This document shows, piece after piece, positions 20,764 to 38,153 of a DNA stretch of 64,000 nt. Position 1 is the first letter of the stretch. Each line of letters opens with the position of its first letter. The notes under the pieces were generated by a model. That model saw only the letters and a list, made by a program, of their open reading frames with translations. It had not been told where the DNA came from and made no database searches. Origin of the DNA: Desulfuromonadaceae bacterium (GTDB lineage Bacteria; Desulfobacterota; Desulfuromonadia; Geobacterales; Pseudopelobacteraceae); NCBI GenBank assembly GCA_028683435.1, contig JAQUIG010000006.1, forward strand, positions 48,183-112,182, read 5' to 3'. A program made the translations under genes and the position numbers.

Positions 20764-22719
20764 ATGTACTCATTCCTCAATAAATTTAAACTTCGTGGAA
20801 AATTGCTGGCGCTGGTCTTGCCGCTTGTTATAATCCCGATTTTAGTCGTTGCCGGAGTAATCGGCCTCATCGCCAATCAGCAGGCCTATCTGGGTATAAC
20901 CAAAACCAGCAAGGACGACCTGCAGCACCTTTCCGCATTCTGCATCGACCTGCTTAATTCACACTATCAGCAGTTCCAGGTCTATAAACAGGACAAAGCT
21001 CAGAATCTCAACAATGAATTGGCGACTTTGACCGCACTTTCCTACAACCTTGTTGCCGCCGAGCACCACCTGTATGCGCAGGGAAAAATTGATCTGAAAA
21101 CAGCCAAGAATGAGGCACGGCAGGCGTTAAAAAAAATAAACGTCGGCGAAAGTGGTTATATATATGCCATGACCAGCCGGGGTGACCTCCAGGCCCATAT
21201 CGCTCGTGAAGGTGAAAATGTATTTGACGAGCGAGATGAGAACGGCCGCTACTTCATCCGTGAAATGTGTGCGGCTGCCCTGGCCAGCAAACCGGGTGAA
21301 ACACTGTTCATAACCTACCCTTGGCGCAATGCTGTCTTGGGGGATACAAAAGCGCGCACCAAAGTTGTTGCATACAAATATTTCCGCCAATGGGACTGGA
21401 TAGTTGCATCCGGCAGTTATCCGAGTGAAGCTATCGGAGATGCCGCCTTTGAACGACAGGCATTTGCCAAACTTAAAGAGAGCATACGAGCCAAAAAAGT
21501 CGGTATGACCGGCTACATATTCTGTATGGACAGTAAAGGCACCTTTACAATCCATCCCGATTCCGAAGGGAAAAACCGGATCAACGAGAAGGATCTGGAT
21601 GGAAACAGCTTTATCAGGGAAATGTGCACTAATAAAAGCGGCTGGATTCGCTATCCCTGGAAAAACAGTGGTGACAAAGCGGCCCGGATGAAAATTGTAC
21701 GGTATGAATACTTTGAACCATGGGACTGGATTGTTGCTGTCGGATCGTACGAGGACGAATTTTATCAGGAAGCAAACAAGATCAAAACATATATTCTCCT
21801 TATCATGACACTTCTGATTCTGGTGGTAGGTGCGGCAGCAACGGCAATGGTTGTTAGAGCCTCAAAAGTTTTTACCGACCCTATTACACACATGATGACC
21901 GTCATAAAAAGTATTAAACGGGGCAATCTGGACGAACGGATCACCGCCAGCGGTGAAGACGAACTTGCCGAACTTGCGAGTGCCTTTAATCGCATGACTG
22001 ACATTATTCAGCGCAACAAGGCTATGGAATCCAATCTTGCTCAACAAGGGAAAATGGCCTCGCTGGGTGTACTGTCATCTGGCGTAGCCCATGAGATAAA
22101 TAACCCGCTGGGGGTGATTATGGGCTATGCAGGCTACCTGGAAAGCAAGATAAGTGAAGATGATCCCAACTATCAGTACATCCACGAAATCAAGCGAGAA
22201 AGCAAGCGGTGCAAAAAAATTGTTCAGGACCTGCTATCCTACGCCCGTACGCCACGCCCGATCCTTGAACCAACTGATCTCAATGCTCTTCTGCAGCAGA
22301 TTGTTGATTTTGCCGCCAATCATACCGATATGCGCGGGGTGACGATCAGCACCGATCTTGCAAAGAATCTGCCTCTGGTTGAACTGGATGGTGACCAGAT
22401 GCGCCAGGTCGCTATAAACCTTATCCTGAATGCCGGAGGGGCCATGCCGGACGGCGGAAACCTGACCCTCAGCACCGAAGCACTTGATTCCACACATGTA
22501 AACATAATATTCAGCGACAGCGGCGGCGGTATCCCGGCAGAAAGTCTGGAAAAAATTTTCGAGCCATTCTACACGACTAAAGCTAGCGGCACCGGACTGG
22601 GTCTGGCCATCACCCGGCAGATCATAGAGCAGCATCATGGCGAGATCCATATCGACAGCACAGTCGGCAGTGGTACGCGCGTCACCGTCACGCTGCCAAC
22701 AGAGCGAGAGGAACTTTAG
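20764..22719 (+). CDS. Sensor histidine kinase with two Cache_2-type domains
   Basis: 651 residues, AGAGG RBS 6 bases before ATG. Membrane segment about 14-37, then a periplasmic region with two successive Cache_2-like units (about 100-220 and 230-340). They share the pattern GYIYAM/GYIFCM, then FIREMC, then TYPW/RYPW, then WDWIVASGSY/WDWIVAVGSY, so the second looks like a duplicate. A second membrane segment (about 341-363) leads to HAMP (ITHMMTVIKSIKRGNL), HisKA with phospho-accepting His in SSGVAHEINNPL and a HATPase with the N box NLILNAGGAMP, DSGGGIP and GTGLGLAITRQI. Cache_2 proteins often bind short organic acids. The stop codon abuts the regulator start, so they form a pair. Confidence 0.94.
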   Translation: MYSFLNKFKLRGKLLALVLPLVIIPILVVAGVIGLIANQQAYLGITKTSKDDLQHLSAFCIDLLNSHYQQFQVYKQDKAQNLNNELATLTALSYNLVAAEHHLYAQGKIDLKTAKNEARQALKKINVGESGYIYAMTSRGDLQAHIAREGENVFDERDENGRYFIREMCAAALASKPGETLFITYPWRNAVLGDTKARTKVVAYKYFRQWDWIVASGSYPSEAIGDAAFERQAFAKLKESIRAKKVGMTGYIFCMDSKGTFTIHPDSEGKNRINEKDLDGNSFIREMCTNKSGWIRYPWKNSGDKAARMKIVRYEYFEPWDWIVAVGSYEDEFYQEANKIKTYILLIMTLLILVVGAAATAMVVRASKVFTDPITHMMTVIKSIKRGNLDERITASGEDELAELASAFNRMTDIIQRNKAMESNLAQQGKMASLGVLSSGVAHEINNPLGVIMGYAGYLESKISEDDPNYQYIHEIKRESKRCKKIVQDLLSYARTPRPILEPTDLNALLQQIVDFAANHTDMRGVTISTDLAKNLPLVELDGDQMRQVAINLILNAGGAMPDGGNLTLSTEALDSTHVNIIFSDSGGGIPAESLEKIFEPFYTTKASGTGLGLAITRQIIEQHHGEIHIDSTVGSGTRVTVTLPTEREEL

Positions 22720-24111
22720 ATGGGCGATAAAAAACGTATCCTACTTATTGATAATGAAGCTGGACTTTGCCGGATGATGGAACAGATTCTGCTGGATCAT
22801 GGTTATTTGACAAGATCCTTCACATCACCCCGCCAGGCGGTCGAAGAGTTCAAGGCCGCCGCATGGGATCTGGTCATCAGTGACATTAAAATGCCCGGCA
22901 TGAGCGGAATTGAGGTATTGCAGGCGATTAAAGCCAAGCAGCATGATATTCCGGTCATCATGATCACCGCATACGCAACCGTTGAGATGTCAATCCAGGC
23001 ACTTCGCAAGGGTGCGTACGACATGCTTACCAAGCCGTTCGAGCCTGACGAACTTGTCTACAGGGTAAAAAACGCCCTGCAGCAACGACAGCTGCTCGAG
23101 GAAAACCGTGAACTGCGAGCAGAACTTGAAAAAAAGTTTCGTTTTGAAAATATCATCGGAGCCTGCGAAGGGCTGAAGAGTGTTTTGGAACGTGTCGGCA
23201 AAATCGCCGTCAGGGATACGTCAATCCTGGTTACCGGTGAATCCGGAACCGGTAAAGAGTTGATCGCACAGGCGATCCATTATAACTCTCCACGCCATGA
23301 GAAAAGATTCGTTGCCATTAATTGCGGCGCTCTACCTGAAAACCTGTTGGAAAGTGAACTGTTCGGCTATAAAAAGGGGGCCTTCACCGGAGCGACGGAG
23401 AGTCGCTGCGGACTTTTGGAGACGGCCAACGGCGGCACCCTCTTTCTGGATGAAGTTGGCAACCTGCCGATGAATGTGCAAAAAACACTGCTCCGGTTTC
23501 TTCAGGAAAAGGAGTTCAACCGGCTTGGAGATACAACCCCTACACGTGTGGATGTAAGGATTCTCTCGGCTACCAACTCGGATATTAAAGAAGCCATAAA
23601 ACAGGGAGTTTTCCGTGAAGACCTCTACTATCGCCTGAATGTTGTCAATATCCATCTTCCCCCCCTGCGGGAACGACGCAGCGATATCCCGCTTCTAGCT
23701 GCCCACTTTATACTCCTTCAGAACCAGCAGTTTAAAACTGCGGTCAAAGGGTTTGAGAGCGAAGCCATGAGAATATTAAGCGAGTACGGGTGGCCGGGTA
23801 ATATCCGTCAGCTTAAAAATGTCATTGAAGCCTGTATGGCAATGGAAACGGGAGAATATATAGCCAGAGATACACTTGCCCAGTTTATTGAGGCTGGCCC
23901 AGACCGGCGTGCTGTTTCATGCGAAGCGCTACTGGCGAGCGATGACATACCGTATACAACGGCTTTGGAGCATTTCGAAGCAGATTTATTGGCAGGACTT
24001 CTGAAAAGACATAGAGGTAACATTGACCTGGCCGCGCGTGAAGCCGGCATGAACATGGCGACCATGTACCGAAAGATAAAGAGGTATGGCATTAAAAAGG
24101 AAAATTACTGA
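22720..24111 (+). CDS. NtrC-family sigma-54-dependent response regulator
   Basis: 463 residues starting at the base after the kinase stop. REC domain (about 5-120; phospho-acceptor Asp in DLVISDIKMPG), AAA+ domain (about 145-380; Walker A TGESGTGKELIA, sigma-54 contact loop GAFTGA, Walker B GGTLFLDEVGN, arginine-containing FREDLYYRLNVV) and a Fis-type helix-turn-helix (about 420-463, RHRGNIDLAAREAGMNMATMYRKIKRYGI). Such activators bind enhancer sites 80-250 bases upstream of -24/-12 promoters and open them after phosphorylation. The TTTGCA-N4-TGCAAA palindromes found upstream of the sigma-54 promoters of the neighbouring membrane operon and satP are the likely targets; this assignment is inference from position. 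Confidence 0.95.
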   Translation: MGDKKRILLIDNEAGLCRMMEQILLDHGYLTRSFTSPRQAVEEFKAAAWDLVISDIKMPGMSGIEVLQAIKAKQHDIPVIMITAYATVEMSIQALRKGAYDMLTKPFEPDELVYRVKNALQQRQLLEENRELRAELEKKFRFENIIGACEGLKSVLERVGKIAVRDTSILVTGESGTGKELIAQAIHYNSPRHEKRFVAINCGALPENLLESELFGYKKGAFTGATESRCGLLETANGGTLFLDEVGNLPMNVQKTLLRFLQEKEFNRLGDTTPTRVDVRILSATNSDIKEAIKQGVFREDLYYRLNVVNIHLPPLRERRSDIPLLAAHFILLQNQQFKTAVKGFESEAMRILSEYGWPGNIRQLKNVIEACMAMETGEYIARDTLAQFIEAGPDRRAVSCEALLASDDIPYTTALEHFEADLLAGLLKRHRGNIDLAAREAGMNMATMYRKIKRYGIKKENY

Positions 24112-24133: not shown

Positions 24134-24176
24134 TGCAAAGAGAAAGCCCGGATTAAATCCGGGCTTTCTCTTTGCA
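24134..24176. terminator. Perfect 20-bp stem hairpin between convergent genes
   Basis: TGCAAAGAGAAAGCCCGGAT, a 3-base loop TAA, then the exact complement. On the plus strand it is followed by AAAAAT rather than T, and on the minus strand the stem end TGCAAAGAG lies next to ...CACGTAATAGC, so neither side has a strong U tract outside the stem, although the stem itself ends in CTTTCTCTTT. It lies between the activator stop (24111) and the membrane-protein stop (24208), fitting a bidirectional terminator or a 3'-end stabiliser. Confidence 0.8.
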
Positions 24177-24207: not shown

Positions 24208-25254
24208 TTATTTCTTTGCAATAGCTGCTTTGAGAGGACCATTCATACGGATTGCTGTAGCAAACTCCATCCAGAAGACAAGATAGATTGAAATCATCAG
24301 CGAAAGGCCGATGTTCTGATTCTCAGCACCCAATGCTTTGGCCAATATTGGCGAAGCAAACCCAGCTCCATGAGTTCCAGTCACATGCTCAAGTATATAA
24401 AAAAGTGGCAATGTCAAAGCAGTCCCTACAAACATGATGGCGATACCAACAGGTCTCTTGACCCAATACTTCGGTGAGAAGCCGTACATACGCATAAAGA
24501 TGACAACCCAGATGATCCAGACGGAATAATCAACAGCCGCATCCGGCAGGGCCAGCTTGTTTTTTACCAGCACCACTTCCAGAACCGTTACGATGCCGAG
24601 CAGGGTAAACATCCAGTTAAACTTTTCATTGGCCTGGGTCTGCCAGTTACGGCTGTCCGGTGCCTGAACCTCTTTGAAGGAGTGGCTGTGAGTTCCGAGG
24701 GCAGAGAAAAGTATCGCAAACCAGATACCGGCGTTATGGAACAGGAGCGAGGCATGATTACCGGCTACGTTGGCAATACGTGACATCGGATCCCTGGCAA
24801 AATCACCGGCAATTCGCATCAGGAAGAGATTGGCTATAACGGAACAACCGATGATCACAGCAATGGTGAATAACCGTCGCGGAAGCAGGTACGGGTCAAC
24901 CTTGTCCGGAAAACCGATAATAAAAGCGAACCAGATCAGGAACATGATCAGCGGAATTCCGAAGGTTATCCCGTACACAGAGTTACCGGCAAAGTCTCCG
25001 CTCTGCGCATAAATGATATAATCATTTTTTGGATCAGCATCTGTATTAACAGCTTTGACAACATCTTTAGGCACTTTACCAACATGCGGCAGCAGCCCCA
25101 TGGCGTACCAGCCATGCTCACCCTGGTGCGTATCTATAACCCAGTACTGATCTCCCATCATTTCATCAAGACCAGCGAAGAGTTGCATACTGAAAGCGGC
25201 ACTGATGACGCAGGCAAGCAGCAGCAGAATAATATTGGGCATTTTCATTGGCAT
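24208..25254 (-). CDS. Polytopic membrane protein, unrecognised
   Basis: 348 residues with about eight hydrophobic segments: about 6-26 (IILLLLACVISAAFSMQLFAG), 98-117, 128-148, 170-187, 212-230, 240-258, 268-290 and 315-335. A periplasm-sized loop between the first two (about 27-95) carries DQYWVIDTHQGEHGWYAMG. Conserved-looking polar residues lie in or near membranes (NVAGNHASLLFHNAGIWF, GTHSHSF). I cannot assign it to a transporter, oxidase or sensor family. It is the last gene of a minus-strand unit with two small membrane genes and a Cys-rich gene, probably transcribed from the sigma-54 promoter at 25931-25947. The His-rich membrane loops could bind a cofactor; this is a guess. Confidence 0.8.
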   Translation of the reverse strand: MPMKMPNIILLLLACVISAAFSMQLFAGLDEMMGDQYWVIDTHQGEHGWYAMGLLPHVGKVPKDVVKAVNTDADPKNDYIIYAQSGDFAGNSVYGITFGIPLIMFLIWFAFIIGFPDKVDPYLLPRRLFTIAVIIGCSVIANLFLMRIAGDFARDPMSRIANVAGNHASLLFHNAGIWFAILFSALGTHSHSFKEVQAPDSRNWQTQANEKFNWMFTLLGIVTVLEVVLVKNKLALPDAAVDYSVWIIWVVIFMRMYGFSPKYWVKRPVGIAIMFVGTALTLPLFYILEHVTGTHGAGFASPILAKALGAENQNIGLSLMISIYLVFWMEFATAIRMNGPLKAAIAKK

Positions 25255-25318
25255 TTTTAATTCCCCCTATAAATAAGTATCTGAAATCATTCCCTGACAG
25301 CATAAAAGCGGGGTTTAA

Positions 25319-25570
25319 TCATTCTTTATGCGTAGTCCAGAACATTGAAACCGCATTAGCTGCAAAAAGTCCATACAGCCACATAGTGTTCCAGGCTGGA
25401 CCTGACCAGTGGCTACCGCGCCCACCACCAACAACTCCCGAAGCTATGACAATACCGATAATTGCGGTAAATGCCACCATCGCCACCGACCTCAGAATAG
25501 CGCTGTTTCGCCAGGTATGACGTTCAAGATCTTCAATCCGTCCCAGTAGTTCAAGCTCTCTTTCGCTCAT
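25319..25570 (-). CDS. Small two-pass membrane protein, unrecognised
   Basis: 83 residues from ATG 25570, which has AAGGAG 7 bases upstream; the track's TTG start six codons earlier reads through that RBS and is rejected. An amphipathic start (MSERELELLGRIEDLERHTWRN) is followed by two membrane segments (about 28-47, VAMVAFTAIIGIVIASGVVGG; 62-78, TMWLYGLFAANAVSMFW) joined by a Gly/Trp-rich loop (GRGSHWSGPAW). It overlaps the preceding 40-residue ORF by 20 bases and is followed by the 348-residue membrane protein after 64 bases. A subunit of a complex with these neighbours is likely by arrangement; function unknown. Confidence 0.75.
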   Translation of the reverse strand: MSERELELLGRIEDLERHTWRNSAILRSVAMVAFTAIIGIVIASGVVGGGRGSHWSGPAWNTMWLYGLFAANAVSMFWTTHKE

Positions 25571-25673
25571 TTCTTTTCTCCTTGGCAATTAGTAGTACAA
25601 CAAAAAGTGTGCTGACAAATACAGCCGGTGCAATAGGTACGTGACTATAATTAAGTGCGAAATGATACAGCAT
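25551..25673 (-). CDS. 40-residue single-pass membrane peptide (not in ORF track)
   Basis: Read directly from the minus strand: ATG at 25673 with AGGGAG 6 bases upstream, stop TGA at 25553-25551. The product begins MLYHFALNYSHVPIAP, has one hydrophobic helix (AVFVSTLFVVLLIA) and ends in a strongly basic tail (KEKRNERKRA), predicting the C terminus in the cytoplasm. It overlaps the next gene, whose RBS lies inside it, so the two are probably translationally coupled. Small single-helix proteins like this are often accessory subunits of membrane complexes. It lies 28 bases after the stop of the Cys-rich gene. The good RBS, coupling and hydrophobic pattern support it as a real gene; no family is recognised. 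Confidence 0.65.
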   Translation of the reverse strand: MLYHFALNYSHVPIAPAVFVSTLFVVLLIAKEKRNERKRA

Positions 25674-25701
25674 AGCGTTCTCCCTTTACCTGTATTATTT
25701 A

Positions 25702-25896
25702 TTAGTACGTTCCTGCACAACACCGGCCTTCTGCAGGAAAGCGGTCAGACAGCTCAAGATATTTGATACAATGGAGATGGCGCCCATGGCAGTAGCGGAT
25801 GATCATATTGACATCGTGCGGAGATATGTACCCGCATCCGACATCACATTGATCGTCATTTTTTCCATAAAACGGGCAGATAGTTTCGGATATCAT
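25702..25896 (-). CDS. Small cysteine-rich protein, unrecognised
   Basis: 64 residues from ATG 25896 (GAGGAA about 5 bases upstream). The track's ATG at 25914 would leave only a 6-base leader after the predicted sigma-54 transcription start near 25920 and has a weaker RBS. The sequence holds seven cysteines: ETICPFYGKNDDQCDVGCGYISP, then YCHGRHLHCIKYLELS and CCAGTY. The CPF(Y)..C...C and C-x5-C spacing suggests a metal or iron-sulphur site. It is soluble, with no membrane segment. It is the first gene of the membrane operon and could be a small redox or metal-binding partner or sensor; this is inference. Confidence 0.7.
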   Translation of the reverse strand: MISETICPFYGKNDDQCDVGCGYISPHDVNMIIRYCHGRHLHCIKYLELSDRFPAEGRCCAGTY

Positions 25897-25930
25897 ATGT
25901 TCCTCAATTGACATAATTCACCATATACTT

Positions 25931-25947
25931 TGCACATGCTGTGCCAA
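25931..25947 (-). promoter_or_regulatory. Sigma-54 (-24/-12) promoter for the membrane operon
   Basis: Minus strand TTGGCACAGCATGTGCA. It matches YTGGCACR-N4-TTGCW at all positions but one (GTGCA for TTGCA), with GG and GC exactly 10 bases apart. The predicted start point is about 25920, giving a 24-base leader to the ATG at 25896. Palindromes at 26020-26184 lie about 80-240 bases upstream, where an NtrC-type activator would bind. Confidence 0.7.
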
Positions 25948-26145: not shown

Positions 26146-26184
26146 TTTGCATATCTGCAAATTACGTTTTTGCATTTTTGCAAG
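26146..26184. promoter_or_regulatory. Tandem TTTGCA-N4-TGCAAA palindromes (putative UAS 2)
   Basis: TTTGCATATCTGCAAA (26146-26161) and TTTGCATTTTTGCAAG (26169-26184) have centres 23 bases apart, about two helical turns. The pair lies in the 530-base gap between the divergent Cys-rich operon and the 153-residue membrane gene, about 205-240 bases from the promoter of the former and 235-260 from the weaker candidate promoter of the latter, so it may serve both. Confidence 0.65.
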
Positions 26185-26447: not shown

Positions 26448-26909
26448 TTGAAAGAAACGGATCACAAGGCCGTGGTAGTGTCGGATGAGAGGTGGAGGCA
26501 CTTTGTGCTGGTCCCATTGGTCGGCGTCTACCTCTTTTCCATGCTCATAACTCTTTCCCACCTTGGTGAACCGTTTCCCTTTATGGGGGAATTATTCTCA
26601 GAAGAGACCAGCGAATCCTTAATCTTTGCCGACAGCGTTATCTCTTTATACCTCATTGTCGGAATACTGAAGCGGCAACGACTCACCCTCTGGCTGCTCA
26701 TCGCCTACAATTTTGTCGTAAGTTTTAATGGGATCGCCAACCTCTTTCTGCTCCCTATCCAGCAGATAGTCACAGCTTCGGGAACCATCGCCCCCGACCA
26801 CCACTACCGCCTCAATGCTTTCGGCGTGTTCGTTTTGTTCCTGATGCTGAACGTGTTCCTATATTTCAACCGGCGCCACTTCGACAATAAATCCATTTAC
26901 CTGTGGTAG
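26448..26909 (+). CDS. Four-pass membrane protein, unrecognised
   Basis: 153 residues from a TTG start with GGAGGG about 6 bases upstream. Hydrophobic segments at about 19-38 (FVLVPLVGVYLFSMLITL), 60-77 (FADSVISLYLIVGIL), 83-108 (LTLWLLIAYNFVVSFNGIANLFLL) and 124-143 (AFGVFVLFLMLNVFLYF). Short charged ends (MKETDHKAVVVSDERWRH, NRRHFDNKSIYLW). No family recognised. It is divergent from the Cys-rich/membrane operon across a 530-base region containing putative activator sites, so it is probably part of the same regulon. It faces satP, with a hairpin between the two stops. Confidence 0.75.
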   Translation: MKETDHKAVVVSDERWRHFVLVPLVGVYLFSMLITLSHLGEPFPFMGELFSEETSESLIFADSVISLYLIVGILKRQRLTLWLLIAYNFVVSFNGIANLFLLPIQQIVTASGTIAPDHHYRLNAFGVFVLFLMLNVFLYFNRRHFDNKSIYLW

Positions 26910-27062: not shown

Positions 27063-27692
27063 TTATGCGGTAACCTCTTTAGCAGCGAGGACTTCCTCAG
27101 TTTGGGCCTTGTCCTTGAGCCAGGCCTCTCCGACAGGGAGCTTAATGCCTGATTCAGCATACACGGTGACTGCCATCAGGTACAGCGCGGAGAAACCGCA
27201 AATAAGCAGGTCATACGCTGCAAAGGTTCCGGCAAGGGCGCTGCCGGCAAGTTCTTTCAGGTCAAGACCGATAAATCCAAGGAGCAAGGTAAGGAAGATA
27301 AAGGCCAGTGTCGCGTTATGCTTCATCGAGGCGATAAAGAGGATGAAGGTGAAGAGGGTCCATGCTACCAGGAAGAATCCGAGATCGTTTGCGGTGAAGG
27401 CGAGAGTTGGATAGGCCTTGGCCAGATCCGGGCTCTTCCCGAATATCACCATAAGACAAAGGGAGATCCAAAAAGCTCCATAACCGGTAAAGGCACAAAA
27501 ACCGAAGTTGTTGCCGGTTTTAAACTCCATCAGGCCGGCGATGAGTTGAGCTGAACCACCGAAGCAGAGCCCGAGCCAGAGGACGGGGGCGATACCGCAC
27601 CATCCCAAGTTATGACATTGAAGCACCAATGTTGTCATTCCGAAACCAGCGAGTCCGACTACCGCAGGATTTCCAAGTTTTAATTCACCCAT
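27063..27692 (-). CDS. satP: Acetate/succinate transporter SatP (GPR1/FUN34/YaaH family)
   Basis: 209 residues with a GGAGGAA RBS. Six membrane segments span about 10-180. The family signature near the N terminus is NPAVVGLAGFGMTT (NPA-x-GL), followed by GGSAQLIAGLMEFKTGNNFGFCAFTGYGAFW, a region conserved in YaaH/SatP channels, and FIASMKHNATLAFIFLTLL. A charged C-terminal tail (KAEEVLAAKEVTA-like) follows. These channels move protonated acetate and related short acids across the inner membrane. A sigma-54 promoter and tandem palindromes lie upstream, like the neighbouring membrane operon, so acetate uptake is probably co-regulated with it. Confidence 0.94.
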   Translation of the reverse strand: MGELKLGNPAVVGLAGFGMTTLVLQCHNLGWCGIAPVLWLGLCFGGSAQLIAGLMEFKTGNNFGFCAFTGYGAFWISLCLMVIFGKSPDLAKAYPTLAFTANDLGFFLVAWTLFTFILFIASMKHNATLAFIFLTLLLGFIGLDLKELAGSALAGTFAAYDLLICGFSALYLMAVTVYAESGIKLPVGEAWLKDKAQTEEVLAAKEVTA

Positions 27693-27745: not shown

Positions 27746-27762
27746 AGCAAGTAACATACCAA
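27746..27762 (-). promoter_or_regulatory. Sigma-54 (-24/-12) promoter for satP
   Basis: Minus strand TTGGTATGTTACTTGCT: -24 TTGGTATG (two mismatches to TTGGCACR), N4, -12 TTGCT (exact), GG and GC 10 bases apart. Predicted start about 27735, giving a 43-base leader before the ATG with its GGAGGAA RBS. The paired palindromes at 27950-27986 are about 190-240 bases upstream. Confidence 0.65.
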
Positions 27763-27949
27763 TGTTATATAATTTTGTATTCTCAAAAAAAACGCAAATT
27801 ATCGAGGTGTTACATCCAACTGCACAAAAGCTCACACTCCTGCCAGTTTCGCAGCATTGCAAAAATATTCTTTGACGGTTTACTCAATGGGAGGGTGAAA
27901 AAGACTAAAATCCTGCTAGTTCAGGCTGTGCGGGGTAACATGGTGGATG

Positions 27950-28120: not shown

Positions 28121-29779
28121 CTACACCGTTTCGCCCATATCCTCCAACTGCAGCTCCTTGATCGCCATTTCCCTCATTTTGAATTTCTGGATCTTTCCGG
28201 AGGCGGTCATCGGGTAGCCGTCTACGAATTTGATGTATTTTGGGATCTTGTAGTTGGCAATCTTTCCCCGGCAGAAGCTGCGAACCTCTTCTACGCTCAT
28301 TTCCACCCCCTTTTTAAGGATGATGGCGGCCATAACCTGCTCCCCGTATTTCCTGTCGGGGACGCCGTAAACCTGAATATCGGAGACTTTGGGGTGAGTA
28401 TAAAGGAATTCTTCGATTTCACGCGGGTAAATGTTTTCGCCGCCACGGATAATCATCTGTTTAATACGTCCGGTGATTTTGCAGTAGCCGTTTTCATCCA
28501 TGATGGCGAGATCCCCGGTATGTAGCCAACTGTCAGCGTCGATCACGCTGGCAGTTTCCTCCGGCATCTTGTAATACCCCTTCATCACCATGTAGCCCCG
28601 GGCACAGAGCTCCCCCTGCTTCCCAGGAGGGAGAGTCGCTCCGGTTTCAATGTCCACTATCTTTACCTCTGCACCTGGTAGAGCACGACCCACCGTCGCT
28701 ACCCTCAGCTCAATAGCATCATCGGTACGGGTCTGGGTAATACCGGGGGAAGACTCGGTCTGCCCATAGACGCTGGTTATCTCAGTGACATGCATATCCC
28801 TGACGGCACGTTTCATCACCTCGATCGGGCAGACTGAGCCGGCCATAATACCGGTCCTCATGCTGGAGAGATCGAATTTTGCAAAGTCCGGATGTTCCAG
28901 CTCGGCAATGAACATGGTGGGGACGCCGTGAACGGCCGTACACTTCTCTTTCTCGATGGTCTGCAGCACCTTCAGCGGATCAAATATCTCTACCGGCACC
29001 ATGGTTGATCCGTGAGTAACACAGGCCATCACCCCGAGCACACAGCCGAAACAGTGGAAAAACGGCACTGGAATACAGAGCCGGTCATGTTCGGTAAACT
29101 TCATACATTCACCGATCTGAAATCCGTTATTCACCAGATTGTAATGGGTGAGCATGACCCCTTTTGGAAAGCCGGTGGTGCCTGATGTATATTGCATGTT
29201 GATGGTTTCATAGCAGTTTAGGCTGGCTTCGACGGCGGCCAGTTCTGAGTCCGGCACCACCTCCCCCATCTGCACGATACTATCGAAGTTGAGCATGCCG
29301 ACGGGAGTTTCCTCGCCGATGAAGACGATGTTTTTCAGATACGGGAGGTTGGGACTTACCAGTTGTCCCGGTTCAGAGGTCCCCAGCTCCGGGACAACGC
29401 TGGCTAGGGTTTCAACGTAGTCTGTATCTTTAAAGGAGCCGACCATAAAGAGCGATGTGGAGTCGGATTGCCTGAGTATATAGTCAAGTTCGGCTGACTT
29501 GTAGCTGGTGTTTACGGTGACGAGGACGGCACCGATTTTGGCGGAAGCAAATTGCAACAGAACCCATTCCGGTACGTTGTAGGCCCATACGGCAATGTTG
29601 TCCCCTTTTTTGATTCCCAGACGCAGCAGTCCTTTGGCTGTCTGGCGGCAGAGATCGTTAAACTGACTGTAGCTGTAGCGGAGGTTGCGCTCGGGATAGA
29701 CCAGTGCTTCGTTGTCGGGATAGCGGCGAGCCATTTCATCCAGCAGGTTGCCGACGGTGTAATTGAGTTGTTGGGACAT
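28121..29779 (-). CDS. AMP-dependent acyl-CoA synthetase
   Basis: 552 residues. Class I adenylate-forming enzyme: P-loop-like YTSGTTGFPKGVMLTH (about 195-210), the A5 region VYGQTESSPGITQT, the A7 Asp in WLHTGDLAIMDENGYCKITGRIKQMI and the catalytic Lys in TASGKIQKFKMRE near the C terminus. It converts a carboxylic acid, ATP and CoA to acyl-CoA, AMP and PPi. Length and sequence style resemble medium-chain/FadD-type ligases rather than the 650-residue acetyl-CoA synthetase, so the chain length preference is open. It ends at the terminator at 28060-28098. It is divergent from the DUF294 gene. No TTTGCA palindrome lies directly upstream, so it may not belong to the satP regulon. Confidence 0.93.
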   Translation of the reverse strand: MSQQLNYTVGNLLDEMARRYPDNEALVYPERNLRYSYSQFNDLCRQTAKGLLRLGIKKGDNIAVWAYNVPEWVLLQFASAKIGAVLVTVNTSYKSAELDYILRQSDSTSLFMVGSFKDTDYVETLASVVPELGTSEPGQLVSPNLPYLKNIVFIGEETPVGMLNFDSIVQMGEVVPDSELAAVEASLNCYETINMQYTSGTTGFPKGVMLTHYNLVNNGFQIGECMKFTEHDRLCIPVPFFHCFGCVLGVMACVTHGSTMVPVEIFDPLKVLQTIEKEKCTAVHGVPTMFIAELEHPDFAKFDLSSMRTGIMAGSVCPIEVMKRAVRDMHVTEITSVYGQTESSPGITQTRTDDAIELRVATVGRALPGAEVKIVDIETGATLPPGKQGELCARGYMVMKGYYKMPEETASVIDADSWLHTGDLAIMDENGYCKITGRIKQMIIRGGENIYPREIEEFLYTHPKVSDIQVYGVPDRKYGEQVMAAIILKKGVEMSVEEVRSFCRGKIANYKIPKYIKFVDGYPMTASGKIQKFKMREMAIKELQLEDMGETV

Positions 29780-35484: not shown

Positions 35485-36621
35485 TTAGTACATTTCGTTG
35501 GCATCTTCGCTCGTCAACTCGGCCAGTGTCAGTTTTTTAGCATCCATCAGCTTCCAGACATAGGCAATATAGCCAAGAACAAAAGGAACAGCCAAGGCCA
35601 CATAGCTCATGACGGTGAGGGTATACTTGCTGCTTGAGGCGTTGTAGATGGTAAGGCTTGATTGCAGATCGGTCACGGACGGATAAAAGGCGGTATTGTT
35701 GTAGCCGGCCAGGAAAAAAATAGCCAGACCAACAAGTACCGTTCCAAGGCCCCCAAACCAGATACCATAATTTTTACCAAGAAAGCCGGTGGCAAGCACT
35801 CCGTAAATAACTGAAACCAGTCCGCCCAGCAGCATGATCAGCACAGCAGGCATACCCAGCAGATTGTGAAGGTATTTACCCTTCTCCATGAAGATGTTAC
35901 CTGTGACCGAATCAACTGCAAAGCCGTCCATGGTGGCAAGGCTGATCAGGATAACCAGCAGAAAGGGGAGGGCCAGCACAAGGTTTATCCAGGTCGCCTT
36001 GCGAGCCCGCAAAACCAGGGCATCATGGTCAACATGGTTGACGATGTACATGGCTCCCAGGGTCCGGGCCAGAAAAACCAGGAACAGACCGAAGGAAAGA
36101 TTGAACAGGTTGAACGCCGCTTCCAGTCCGTGGTACGAAGTACCCCATTTGACAGAGTTGAACATATCGAGGCTGAAACGGGAACCGGTAAAAAAGGTGC
36201 CCACCGCTGCACCGATCAGGAGAATCCCTACGCTGCCGTTAATGAACATGAAGATCTCATAGGTACGCGCGCCGAGAAAATTATCCGGTTTCTTGCGGTA
36301 TTCATAACTGACCGCCTGGAGGATAAAGGTAAAGAGAATAAGCATCCACACCCAGTAGGCACCGCCGAAGCTCGTGGCGTAAAAGAGCGGGAAGGCCGCG
36401 AACAGGGCGCCTCCAAAAAGGACCAGTGTGGTGAAGGTCAATTCCCATTTGCGTCCCATGGTGTTGATGATCAGAGATTTTTCCTCTTCAGTAGTCGCCG
36501 TAGTAAAAATCAGCGTCTGCCCCCCCTGAACAAAAGTCAGGAAGAGAAAGAGTGAGCCGACAACTGAAGTAATCAACCACCAGAGTTGCTGCAGGGTTGT
36601 GTGATCCAGATTTCCTATCAT
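35485..36621 (-). CDS. cydB: Cytochrome bd quinol oxidase subunit II (CydB)
   Basis: 378 residues with about eight membrane segments. It starts LDHTTLQQLWWLITSVVGSLFLFLTFVQGGQTL and has the CydB-typical GRKWELTFTTLVLFGGALFAAFPLFYATSFGG, followed by LRARKATWINLVLALP. It begins 2 bases after the cydA stop. CydB is the partner of CydA that supports the oxygen channel and stabilises the haems. Together they reduce oxygen at high affinity with quinol, useful for a mainly anaerobic organism meeting low oxygen. Confidence 0.95.
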   Translation of the reverse strand: MIGNLDHTTLQQLWWLITSVVGSLFLFLTFVQGGQTLIFTTATTEEEKSLIINTMGRKWELTFTTLVLFGGALFAAFPLFYATSFGGAYWVWMLILFTFILQAVSYEYRKKPDNFLGARTYEIFMFINGSVGILLIGAAVGTFFTGSRFSLDMFNSVKWGTSYHGLEAAFNLFNLSFGLFLVFLARTLGAMYIVNHVDHDALVLRARKATWINLVLALPFLLVILISLATMDGFAVDSVTGNIFMEKGKYLHNLLGMPAVLIMLLGGLVSVIYGVLATGFLGKNYGIWFGGLGTVLVGLAIFFLAGYNNTAFYPSVTDLQSSLTIYNASSSKYTLTVMSYVALAVPFVLGYIAYVWKLMDAKKLTLAELTSEDANEMY

Positions 36622-36623
36622 TT

Positions 36624-38153
36624 TTATGCCTCCGGTCCGGTCTTGATTTGCTTCAGCATAATACGAATTTCAGCCAGCAGCAGTGCAGTAAACAGGGTCA
36701 GGAAGATGAAAAAGGTGGCCTGCACGTTGCTCGTGGCAATGTTAGTACTTGCCACATTCACCGGCAGCAGTCCCTGAATAGCCCACGGTTGCCGACCTAC
36801 CTCAGCCACCACCCATCCAGCCTGTTGCGCCACATAGCCTAAAAAGATGGAAAGAAGACACGCCAGGTTCAGCCAGCGTTGGTTCTCGAGGGTCCCCTTG
36901 AAAGCAAAAAAGAGTACCAGCAGAAAGATCAGCGGAAACAGGGTTCCCAGCACCACCATAATATGGAAACTGTAGAATGCAATGGCCACAGGCGGTACGG
37001 CCTGAGCCGGGCTTTTCAGATAACCGTAACCAAGATCTCCCTTGTGCTGGTTAAAGAGGACCAGAGCGGATGCGGCATCTGCCGCATCCCCACTATTCTT
37101 GGCATTCTTGTAGCGGGTCAGTTCGGCTACGGCGATCTTGCCGGTGACCATGCGCTGTTCGGCGCCGACAATATTACGCTCGGTATTGCCGAAGACCAGA
37201 TCGTTGATCCCGGGAACATAGCTGTCAACATCCCGATTGGCGAGGAGCGAAAGCAGACCGGGGATTTTCACCTCCTGGTGAAATGCAGGGAGGTCATCGC
37301 CCGGTTTCTTGCTGGAGTTGATGATACCTGCGGCGATGATCGGAGCCTTTTCCTGCCCTACATATAATCCTTCTATGGCCGCCAGTTTCATCGGCTGCCT
37401 GTGCGCTACGTTGAAGGCGGCCTCATCACCGGTAAAGGCGCAAAAGATCGAAGCAATGAAACCAAATACTGCGGCGACCACCATGCTCCGCTTGGCCATT
37501 TTCTGATGGCGTTTCTGCAGCAGGAAGAGAGAGGAGATGCCCACAACGAAGAGCGAAGCGAGCAGAAAGGCAGAGCTTGTGGTGTGAGTGAACTTGTGGA
37601 CAGCCACAGGAGAGAGGGCAACGTCCCAGAAGCTTTGCATTTCAAAGCGGGCCCTGTCGGGGTTAAAGGCCATGCCTGTCGGAAACTGCATCCAGGCATT
37701 GGCGACCAGAATCCAGACCGCCGAGAGGCTGGAGCCCACCGCCACCATCCAGGTGGAAAAGAGATGAAAACCCTTGGAAACCCTATGCCAGCCGAAAAAC
37801 ATCACGGCAAAGAAAGCGGCTTCGAGAAAGAAGGCAAAAATCCCCTCGATGGCCAAGGGCGCACCGAAGATGTCTCCCACCATCCAGGAGTAATTGGACC
37901 AGTTGGTGCCGAATTGGAACTCAAGAATGATGCCGGTAGCTATACCGATGGCAAAATTGACGCCGAAGAGCGTCATCCAGAACTTGGTCAGTTTCTTCCA
38001 CTCTTCGTTGCCTGTTTTGACATAGATCGACTCAAAAAAGGCAACAAGAAAGGAGAGTCCCAGTGTCAACGGCACGAAAATCCAGTGATACATGGCGGTC
38101 AGCGCAAATTGCGCCCTCGCCCAATCTACCGTGCTTAAAATTTGATCTTCCAA
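36624..38153 (-). CDS. cydA: Cytochrome bd quinol oxidase subunit I (CydA)
   Basis: 509 residues. The early motif WARAQFALTAMYHWIFVPLTLGLS holds the His ligand of haem b595; GWHRVSKGFHLFSTWMVAVGSSLSAVWILVANAWMQ and FTGDEAAFN with HRQPMKLAAIEG (Q-loop start) follow. The insert between about 255 and 370 (PGLLSLLANRDVDSYVPGINDL) is long, so this is a long-Q-loop (E. coli-type) enzyme. The conserved GRQPWAIQGLLP lies near 445-456. It oxidises quinol on the periplasmic side and forms water at haem d. Genes run DUF4492 protein, cydA, cydB, small peptide. Confidence 0.96.
   Translation of the reverse strand: MEDQILSTVDWARAQFALTAMYHWIFVPLTLGLSFLVAFFESIYVKTGNEEWKKLTKFWMTLFGVNFAIGIATGIILEFQFGTNWSNYSWMVGDIFGAPLAIEGIFAFFLEAAFFAVMFFGWHRVSKGFHLFSTWMVAVGSSLSAVWILVANAWMQFPTGMAFNPDRARFEMQSFWDVALSPVAVHKFTHTTSSAFLLASLFVVGISSLFLLQKRHQKMAKRSMVVAAVFGFIASIFCAFTGDEAAFNVAHRQPMKLAAIEGLYVGQEKAPIIAAGIINSSKKPGDDLPAFHQEVKIPGLLSLLANRDVDSYVPGINDLVFGNTERNIVGAEQRMVTGKIAVAELTRYKNAKNSGDAADAASALVLFNQHKGDLGYGYLKSPAQAVPPVAIAFYSFHIMVVLGTLFPLIFLLVLFFAFKGTLENQRWLNLACLLSIFLGYVAQQAGWVVAEVGRQPWAIQGLLPVNVASTNIATSNVQATFFIFLTLFTALLLAEIRIMLKQIKTGPEA

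Follow-up and report, generated by a model that had tools for sequence, protein, structure and literature searches.

Related systems

DctBD and MifSR couple a periplasmic acid sensor and an NtrC-family regulator to the sigma-54 promoter of a carrier gene. The sensor-regulator-promoter set analysed here follows the same logic, but DctBD/MifSR-type systems act on C4-dicarboxylates or α-ketoglutarate and drive known carriers, whereas the main conserved target in the present case is an unnamed membrane cassette. For the sensor itself, the closest described proteins are Cache chemoreceptors. The ligands of PscD are acetate, glycolate, propionate and pyruvate; Y90, H103, Y143 and K156 bind them, and W92 and W145 stack on the ligand (PMC5062169). 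Structure 4k08 contains acetate, and the ligand modelled in 4exo is pyruvate (PMC5062169, PMC3831638). The four carboxylate-binding residues of these PscD/McpP-type sensors (5g4y/5g4z, 4k08, 4exo; PMC5062169) are shared by each module of the kinase that adjoins the cassette. However, PscD/McpP-type proteins are single-Cache chemoreceptors, whereas the present kinase has a double module, with F or Y in place of W92 and I in place of F126.

Two described carriers are also relevant. SatP/AceTr (NF038013) has the palindrome and sigma-54 site in common with the cassette operon, but its sequence is unrelated to those of the 83- and 348-aa cassette proteins. In the L-lactate/H+ symporter SfMCT, Arg280 serves the substrate and H250, R256 and D257 form the proton site (PMC6573034). 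The MFS protein of the present regulon keeps Arg280, whereas the proton-site residues are not conserved in the aligned proteins. Such SfMCT-type genes often lie in the cassette's own operon, but as neighbors and not as the cassette itself. A literature search found no paper on the gene set, its palindrome or a matching acetate-uptake regulon.

The operon and its first gene

The DNA analysed (the window) is a 64,000-nucleotide stretch from a Desulfuromonadaceae bacterium. A check of its ORFs gives an operon of four minus-strand genes in the order cys, 40 aa, 83 aa, 348 aa, spanning 25896-24208 (Table 1). There are gaps of 28 nt between the cys and 40-aa genes and 64 nt between the 83- and 348-aa genes; the 40-aa gene runs 20 nt into the 83-aa gene, and the spacing of the two starts is near-constant at 103 nt across loci.

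Table 1. Features of the cassette locus, the adjoining two-component system and satP (positions in the window)
Feature	Position	Strand	Remarks
Sensor histidine kinase	20764..22719	+	Two periplasmic Cache modules, C2/C3-carboxylate-binding residues in each
NtrC/AtoC-type sigma-54 response regulator	22720..24111	+	Presumed palindrome reader; sigma-54 interaction domain and HTH
Perfect inverted repeat GCAAAGAGAAAGCCCGGATTAAATCCGGGCTTTCTCTTTGC	24135..24175	.	Between operon and convergent regulator gene; terminator-like; read directly from sequence
348-aa membrane protein, core cassette gene	24208..25254	-	About 8 predicted TM helices; 70-93% identity across order; no known family
83-aa protein, core with 348-aa gene	25319..25570	-	Charged N-terminal helix and two hydrophobic stretches; best-conserved member, 73-98% identity
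40-aa single-span protein, accessory	25551..25673	-	Basic C-terminus; 20-nt overlap with 83-aa gene; 46 loci
64-aa Cys-rich soluble protein	25702..25896	-	Start at 25896 instead of 25914; five invariant Cys; first gene behind sigma-54 promoter
Sigma-54 promoter TGGCACAGCATGTGC of operon	25932..25946	-	-24/-12, GG-N10-GC; position kept in about 70 of 73 loci
Exact enhancer palindrome TTTGCAAACATGCAAA	26020..26035	.	Upstream of operon
Exact enhancer palindrome TTTGCATATCTGCAAA	26146..26161	.	Upstream of operon
One-mismatch enhancer palindrome TTTGCATTTTTGCAAG	26169..26184	.	Upstream of operon
SatP/AceTr acetate uptake transporter	27063..27692	-	NF038013, 143 bits, cut-off 50; second regulon target in window's genome
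Sigma-54-type site TGGTATGTTACTTGC of satP	27747..27761	-	Upstream of satP
One-mismatch enhancer palindrome	27848..27863	.	Upstream of satP
Exact enhancer palindrome TTTGCAAAAATGCAAA	27950..27965	.	Upstream of satP
Exact enhancer palindrome TTTGCAAATATGCAAA	27971..27986	.	Upstream of satP

A sequence-only reading of this DNA had proposed these four ORFs as one operon; all four are present, and the set recurs in the same order in about 79 loci. The same reading described a soluble protein with seven Cys residues starting at 25914. Its soluble, Cys-rich character stands, with five of the seven Cys invariant in the alignment across loci, but the start does not. With the sigma-54 site at 25946-25932, transcription is predicted to start near 25920, about 6 nt from the ATG at 25914, which leaves no room for a ribosome site and makes that start unlikely. 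The ATG at 25896 is preceded by GAGGA and gives a 64-aa protein, in agreement with the other loci. The large protein, which had been called His-rich, has nine His residues, two of them invariant and three at least 90% conserved.

Conservation of the cassette

Of 77 genomes from the order, in which sampling is uneven in relatedness, 67 encode the 348-aa protein, at 70-93% identity. A count over 58 genomes, the window's own included, gave 50 (75-93% identity bar one fragment). Named genomes supply 79 cassette loci, in Geomonas, Geotalea, Oryzomonas, Trichlorobacter, Citrifermentans, Pelotalea and others; G. sulfurreducens and G. metallireducens are absent from these named matches, which come from a scan with just two peptide patterns. 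Against close relatives, dN/dS is 0.01-0.08 for the 348-, 83- and 64-aa proteins (about 0.05 for the 348-aa and 0.02 for the 83-aa protein). Low dN/dS and recurrence of the set in order in about 79 loci together indicate that the operon genes are more than chance ORFs. The values for the 40-aa gene, 0.2-1.0 on few sites, amount to weak constraint.

Do the four genes form a fixed unit? The 83-aa gene accompanies the 348-aa gene in 78 of 79 loci, and the 40-aa gene is recognisable in 46. Three genomes (G037, G043, G045) keep the 348-aa gene and have neither the Cys gene nor the kinase; the two of these loci that were read (G037 and G043) have the 83+348 pair and no palindrome. Joint conservation of all four, on which the sequence-only reading had staked its complex, thus holds for the 83- and 348-aa genes, a constant pair, but not for the Cys and 40-aa genes, which are sometimes absent. 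From these comparisons the 83+348 pair is the inseparable core of the cassette, the Cys protein goes with regulation, and the 40-aa protein is a fast-changing accessory, so that a fixed four-subunit complex is unlikely. Since the Cys protein is absent from some pair-keeping genomes and the 40-aa protein is found in part of the loci, neither would be an obligatory subunit.

Second copies of the Cys gene occur in two genomes. One (G457, L148:7428-7243, minus strand) stands alone with its own palindrome; the other (G480, L149:8061-7921, minus strand) is next to satP and divergent from a 153-aa gene described below. In a further genome (G003) two cassette starts (L145, L146) both run off their contigs at residue 36 of the 83-aa protein, and another contig (L152) breaks off within the 348-aa gene; this is probably a duplicated cassette that was collapsed in assembly.

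Among about 400 genomes of the phylum, the 348-aa protein occurs beyond the order only in one family of another class (G083 and G258). A profile search of 247 phylum genomes likewise gave no distant relatives, its matches being the order and one other family, and a plasmid search gave no match. The loci in the other class (L125, L126) have the order kinase - regulator - Cys - 83 - 348 at 63-86% identity, and in L126 an MFS gene follows the 348-aa gene. The cassette system has therefore crossed classes. The genomes G083 and G258 have zero exact TTTGCA-N4-TGCAAA sites, and the binding motif may have changed there.

Family and structure searches

The sequence-only reading could assign no family to any of the four proteins, and neither could we: searches of Pfam, NCBIfam, PHROG and PDB with single sequences and with alignments of 12-54 members gave no significant match. 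Weak Pfam matches to MSL2_3, SYS1, Zip and DUF4229 fell far under the cut-offs and were discarded as hydrophobic-stretch noise. Among curated families and solved structures, the 348- and 83-aa proteins thus have no significant match to a known transporter family. Structure prediction, which had been suggested as a check, gave about eight predicted helices for the 348-aa protein but no link to a known fold: the AlphaFold2 model has a mean pLDDT of 51 (59 for the Cys protein), and Foldseek with this low-confidence model returned no match. Only helix counts and positions were taken from such models. On this basis, combined with the alignment, the predicted TM helices of the 348-aa protein carry three conserved charged residues, R147, E226 and E330, which would suit carboxylate or proton movement.

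The sigma-54 promoter and the palindrome

The control region fared well under comparison. In about 70 of 73 loci the proposed sigma-54 promoter recurs as a -24/-12 site at a conserved place ahead of the Cys gene; single sites of this type barely beat shuffled sequence, and the weight lies in recurrence at one place. The enhancer-like palindromes, also noted from the sequence, have the consensus TTTGCA-N4-TGCAAA and are present upstream of the cassette in 69 of 72 loci, with 180 sites at up to one mismatch. Over the 400 bp that precede the cassette their density is 6.25/kb, versus 0.025/kb elsewhere in the same loci, a difference of about 250-fold. The window's 3.17-Mb genome has just four exact copies, of which one pair precedes the operon and the other pair satP. 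A search of 16 further genomes gave 52 exact palindromes versus 1 for a reversed control. When the flanks were read, 46 of the 52 were found to precede the cassette (30), an SfMCT-type MFS gene (7), satP (7), the kinase (1) or a second Cys copy (1); the others precede a GSU0071-family gene (3) or have no evident target (3). The locus thus has the marks of a sigma-54/NtrC-type regulon: GG-N10-GC at a conserved position, a specific conserved palindrome, and a linked regulator with a sigma-54 domain and an HTH.

The three GSU0071-family-like genes with an upstream palindrome are L173:3074-3511 (minus), L175:3776-4222 (plus) and L178:3342-3788 (minus); family membership was shown for one of them, and the other two were assigned by sequence resemblance. 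A gene of this family is likely to be a further regulon target of uncharacterised role, and with 3 of the 52 palindromes preceding it, not every target is a transporter. In genome G457 an exact palindrome (L147:11421) lies about 64 bp ahead of the kinase gene, which suggests that the two-component system is autoregulated there.

The kinase and its probable signal

The periplasmic part of the kinase matches Cache chemoreceptor domains of solved structure (2qhk/4exo, 5g4y, 4k08). In all 37 kinases compared, the four hydrogen-bonding pocket residues, Y90, H103, Y143 and K156, together with W145, are invariant in both Cache modules. Each module therefore has the pocket residues for C2/C3 carboxylates, and the signal is likely to be a C2/C3 monocarboxylate. 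The kinase and the 348-aa gene also go together: in 77 genomes, 63 have both, 4 + 2 are discordant and 8 have neither (P = 1e-6, a value that is only a guide because related genomes are not independent). The two genomes with the kinase and without the 348-aa gene are only 78-81% complete.

Carriers under the same predicted control

The sequence-only reading tied the operon to satP and acetate metabolism through a common palindrome. This tie is general: the palindrome precedes satP here and 19 of 20 satP orthologs in cassette genomes, nearly all of which also have a sigma-54-type site 64-80 nt ahead of the gene. It is missing from three orthologs (74-87% identical) in genomes without kinase and cassette, and from five distant satP homologs. 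The second carrier is an MFS protein that passes the SfMCT L-lactate transporter equivalog NF049980 (401 bits, cut-off 320) and matches PDB 6g9x (SfMCT) with E = 1.5e-47. MFS genes unlinked to the cassette have their own palindrome in 14 of 15 cases, those within the cassette locus in 0 of 15; two MFS homologs in genomes without kinase and cassette also have none. In 28 of 66 loci an MFS gene lies directly 3' of the 348-aa gene, on the same strand every time. The window's genome has no copy of the SfMCT-type gene and its co-regulated carrier is SatP, which stands in place of the MFS in G449, G465 and G469 as well; of the 67 cassette genomes, 10 lack both the MFS and a close satP. In Geomonas-type loci the cassette is often followed by a further conserved gene pair, which we take to resemble a DUF485 + solute-symporter pair.

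Several neighboring genes deserve comment. A 153-aa membrane-like protein of no family is encoded at 26448-26909 (plus strand) of the window, with a TTG start at 26448. Its gene is convergent to satP in G469, G038, G055 and G449 and beside satP in G480 (60-88% identity), and from this arrangement the protein appears to be an unnamed satP partner. An acyl-CoA ligase gene (28121-29779) was considered as a regulon member and set aside: it recurs near some loci but has no palindrome of its own. In clade f2 topA lies upstream of the pair; it was dropped as a partner because it is a housekeeping neighbor. Two adjacent genes at 35485-38153 (minus strand), read by eye and presumably encoding the cytochrome bd oxidase subunits cydB and cydA, sit in an apparently anaerobic organism.

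What does the cassette do?

The explanation that we put forward is that the operon is a target of a dedicated short-monocarboxylate two-component regulon and that the 83+348 pair is a transporter or an uptake partner; we consider this, taken whole, about evenly balanced between right and wrong. The adjoining kinase would bind a periplasmic C2/C3 carboxylate of the acetate, propionate or pyruvate type and phosphorylate the NtrC-type regulator, which would bind TTTGCA-N4-TGCAAA and drive sigma-54 promoters. These would turn on the cassette along with importers, namely SatP in this genome and, in most relatives, a lactate/H+ symporter of the SfMCT type. The 83+348 pair would then form a unit in the membrane that either transports short monocarboxylates or is a partner required for their uptake; the 40-aa protein would be a small subunit and the Cys protein a soluble metal- or thiol-binding modulator, both of them optional. 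The regulatory steps, i.e. sensing, palindrome binding and promoter activation, are well supported as predictions by strong comparative evidence; the biochemical activities assigned to the cassette proteins we infer.

The sequence-only reading had suggested a membrane complex for transport or redox chemistry. Transport is the plausible half, as the remaining palindrome targets of known function encode monocarboxylate transporters or belong to the regulatory system; redox chemistry found no support. A redox complex would have a metal cluster in the Cys protein and haem or quinone in the membrane proteins, and the five invariant Cys of the small protein, the two invariant and three nearly invariant His of the 348-aa protein and a host order of respiratory acetate oxidisers are what such a complex might lead one to expect. 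Yet the conserved His in or near helices (H167, H173, H191) sit on one helix and its flank in the low-confidence model, the other predicted helices having none, so there is no bis-His haem arrangement across helices. Alignments and model gave no His ligands on two helices, no CxxCH, no conserved Cys pair or cluster Cys in either membrane protein, and no cofactor motif. The Cys gene is, moreover, missing in three pair-keeping genomes, and the co-regulated targets of known function are carriers. The Cys protein is dispensable, even though it may bind metal, and a redox complex is very improbable.

The pair could also be an accessory or regulatory membrane complex, one that serves SfMCT-type carriers or SatP as a stabilising chaperone, coupling or signalling partner, or that feeds back on the kinase. 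It adjoins an MFS gene in the 28 of 66 loci noted above and stays when the carrier switches from MFS to SatP, and the small cassette subunits are similar in size to transporter accessory peptides. Nevertheless, genomes with neither carrier keep the cassette, a few pair-keeping genomes lack kinase and regulator, and an eight-helix protein of 348 residues with dN/dS of about 0.05 is big for a chaperone. We rate this role as unlikely, though worth keeping in mind; persistence of the cassette across the MFS/SatP swap and in the 10 of 67 genomes with neither favors a transport role of its own over that of a subunit of one carrier. Because three genomes (G037, G043, G045) keep the pair without the kinase, and the two checked have no palindrome, its function need not depend on the regulon. 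Survival of the pair without the regulon in clade f2 would also fit a role unrelated to carboxylates, for example in envelope or ion homeostasis, that is needed for pH or counter-ion balance during growth on acids; one regulon target, the GSU0071-family protein, is likewise without transport annotation. Such a role is improbable, however, since the pair is in one operon with a lactate-type carrier in many genomes and is co-lost with the carboxylate kinase.

Implications

Our preferred reading thus remains a role in monocarboxylate uptake: the cassette is predicted to be co-induced with lactate and acetate transporters and therefore probably aids uptake or handling of these acids. A bolder version, which we offer tentatively and think somewhat doubtful, is that the 83+348 pair represents a novel family of transporters for monocarboxylates, energy-coupled and with a two-helix partner unlike those of known carriers, and is possibly a main entry for acetate or propionate in many Geobacterales.

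Metal reduction and current production by Geobacter-type bacteria are fuelled by acetate and related acids, whose uptake routes are poorly assigned. For most of the order, the regulon prediction supplies a class of inducers, their sensor, the promoters and a DNA motif. This motif, TTTGCA-N4-TGCAAA, can serve as an annotation marker of regulon members genome-wide, with almost no background. As the most conserved target of the regulon is an unnamed membrane cassette, four hypothetical proteins become directly testable.
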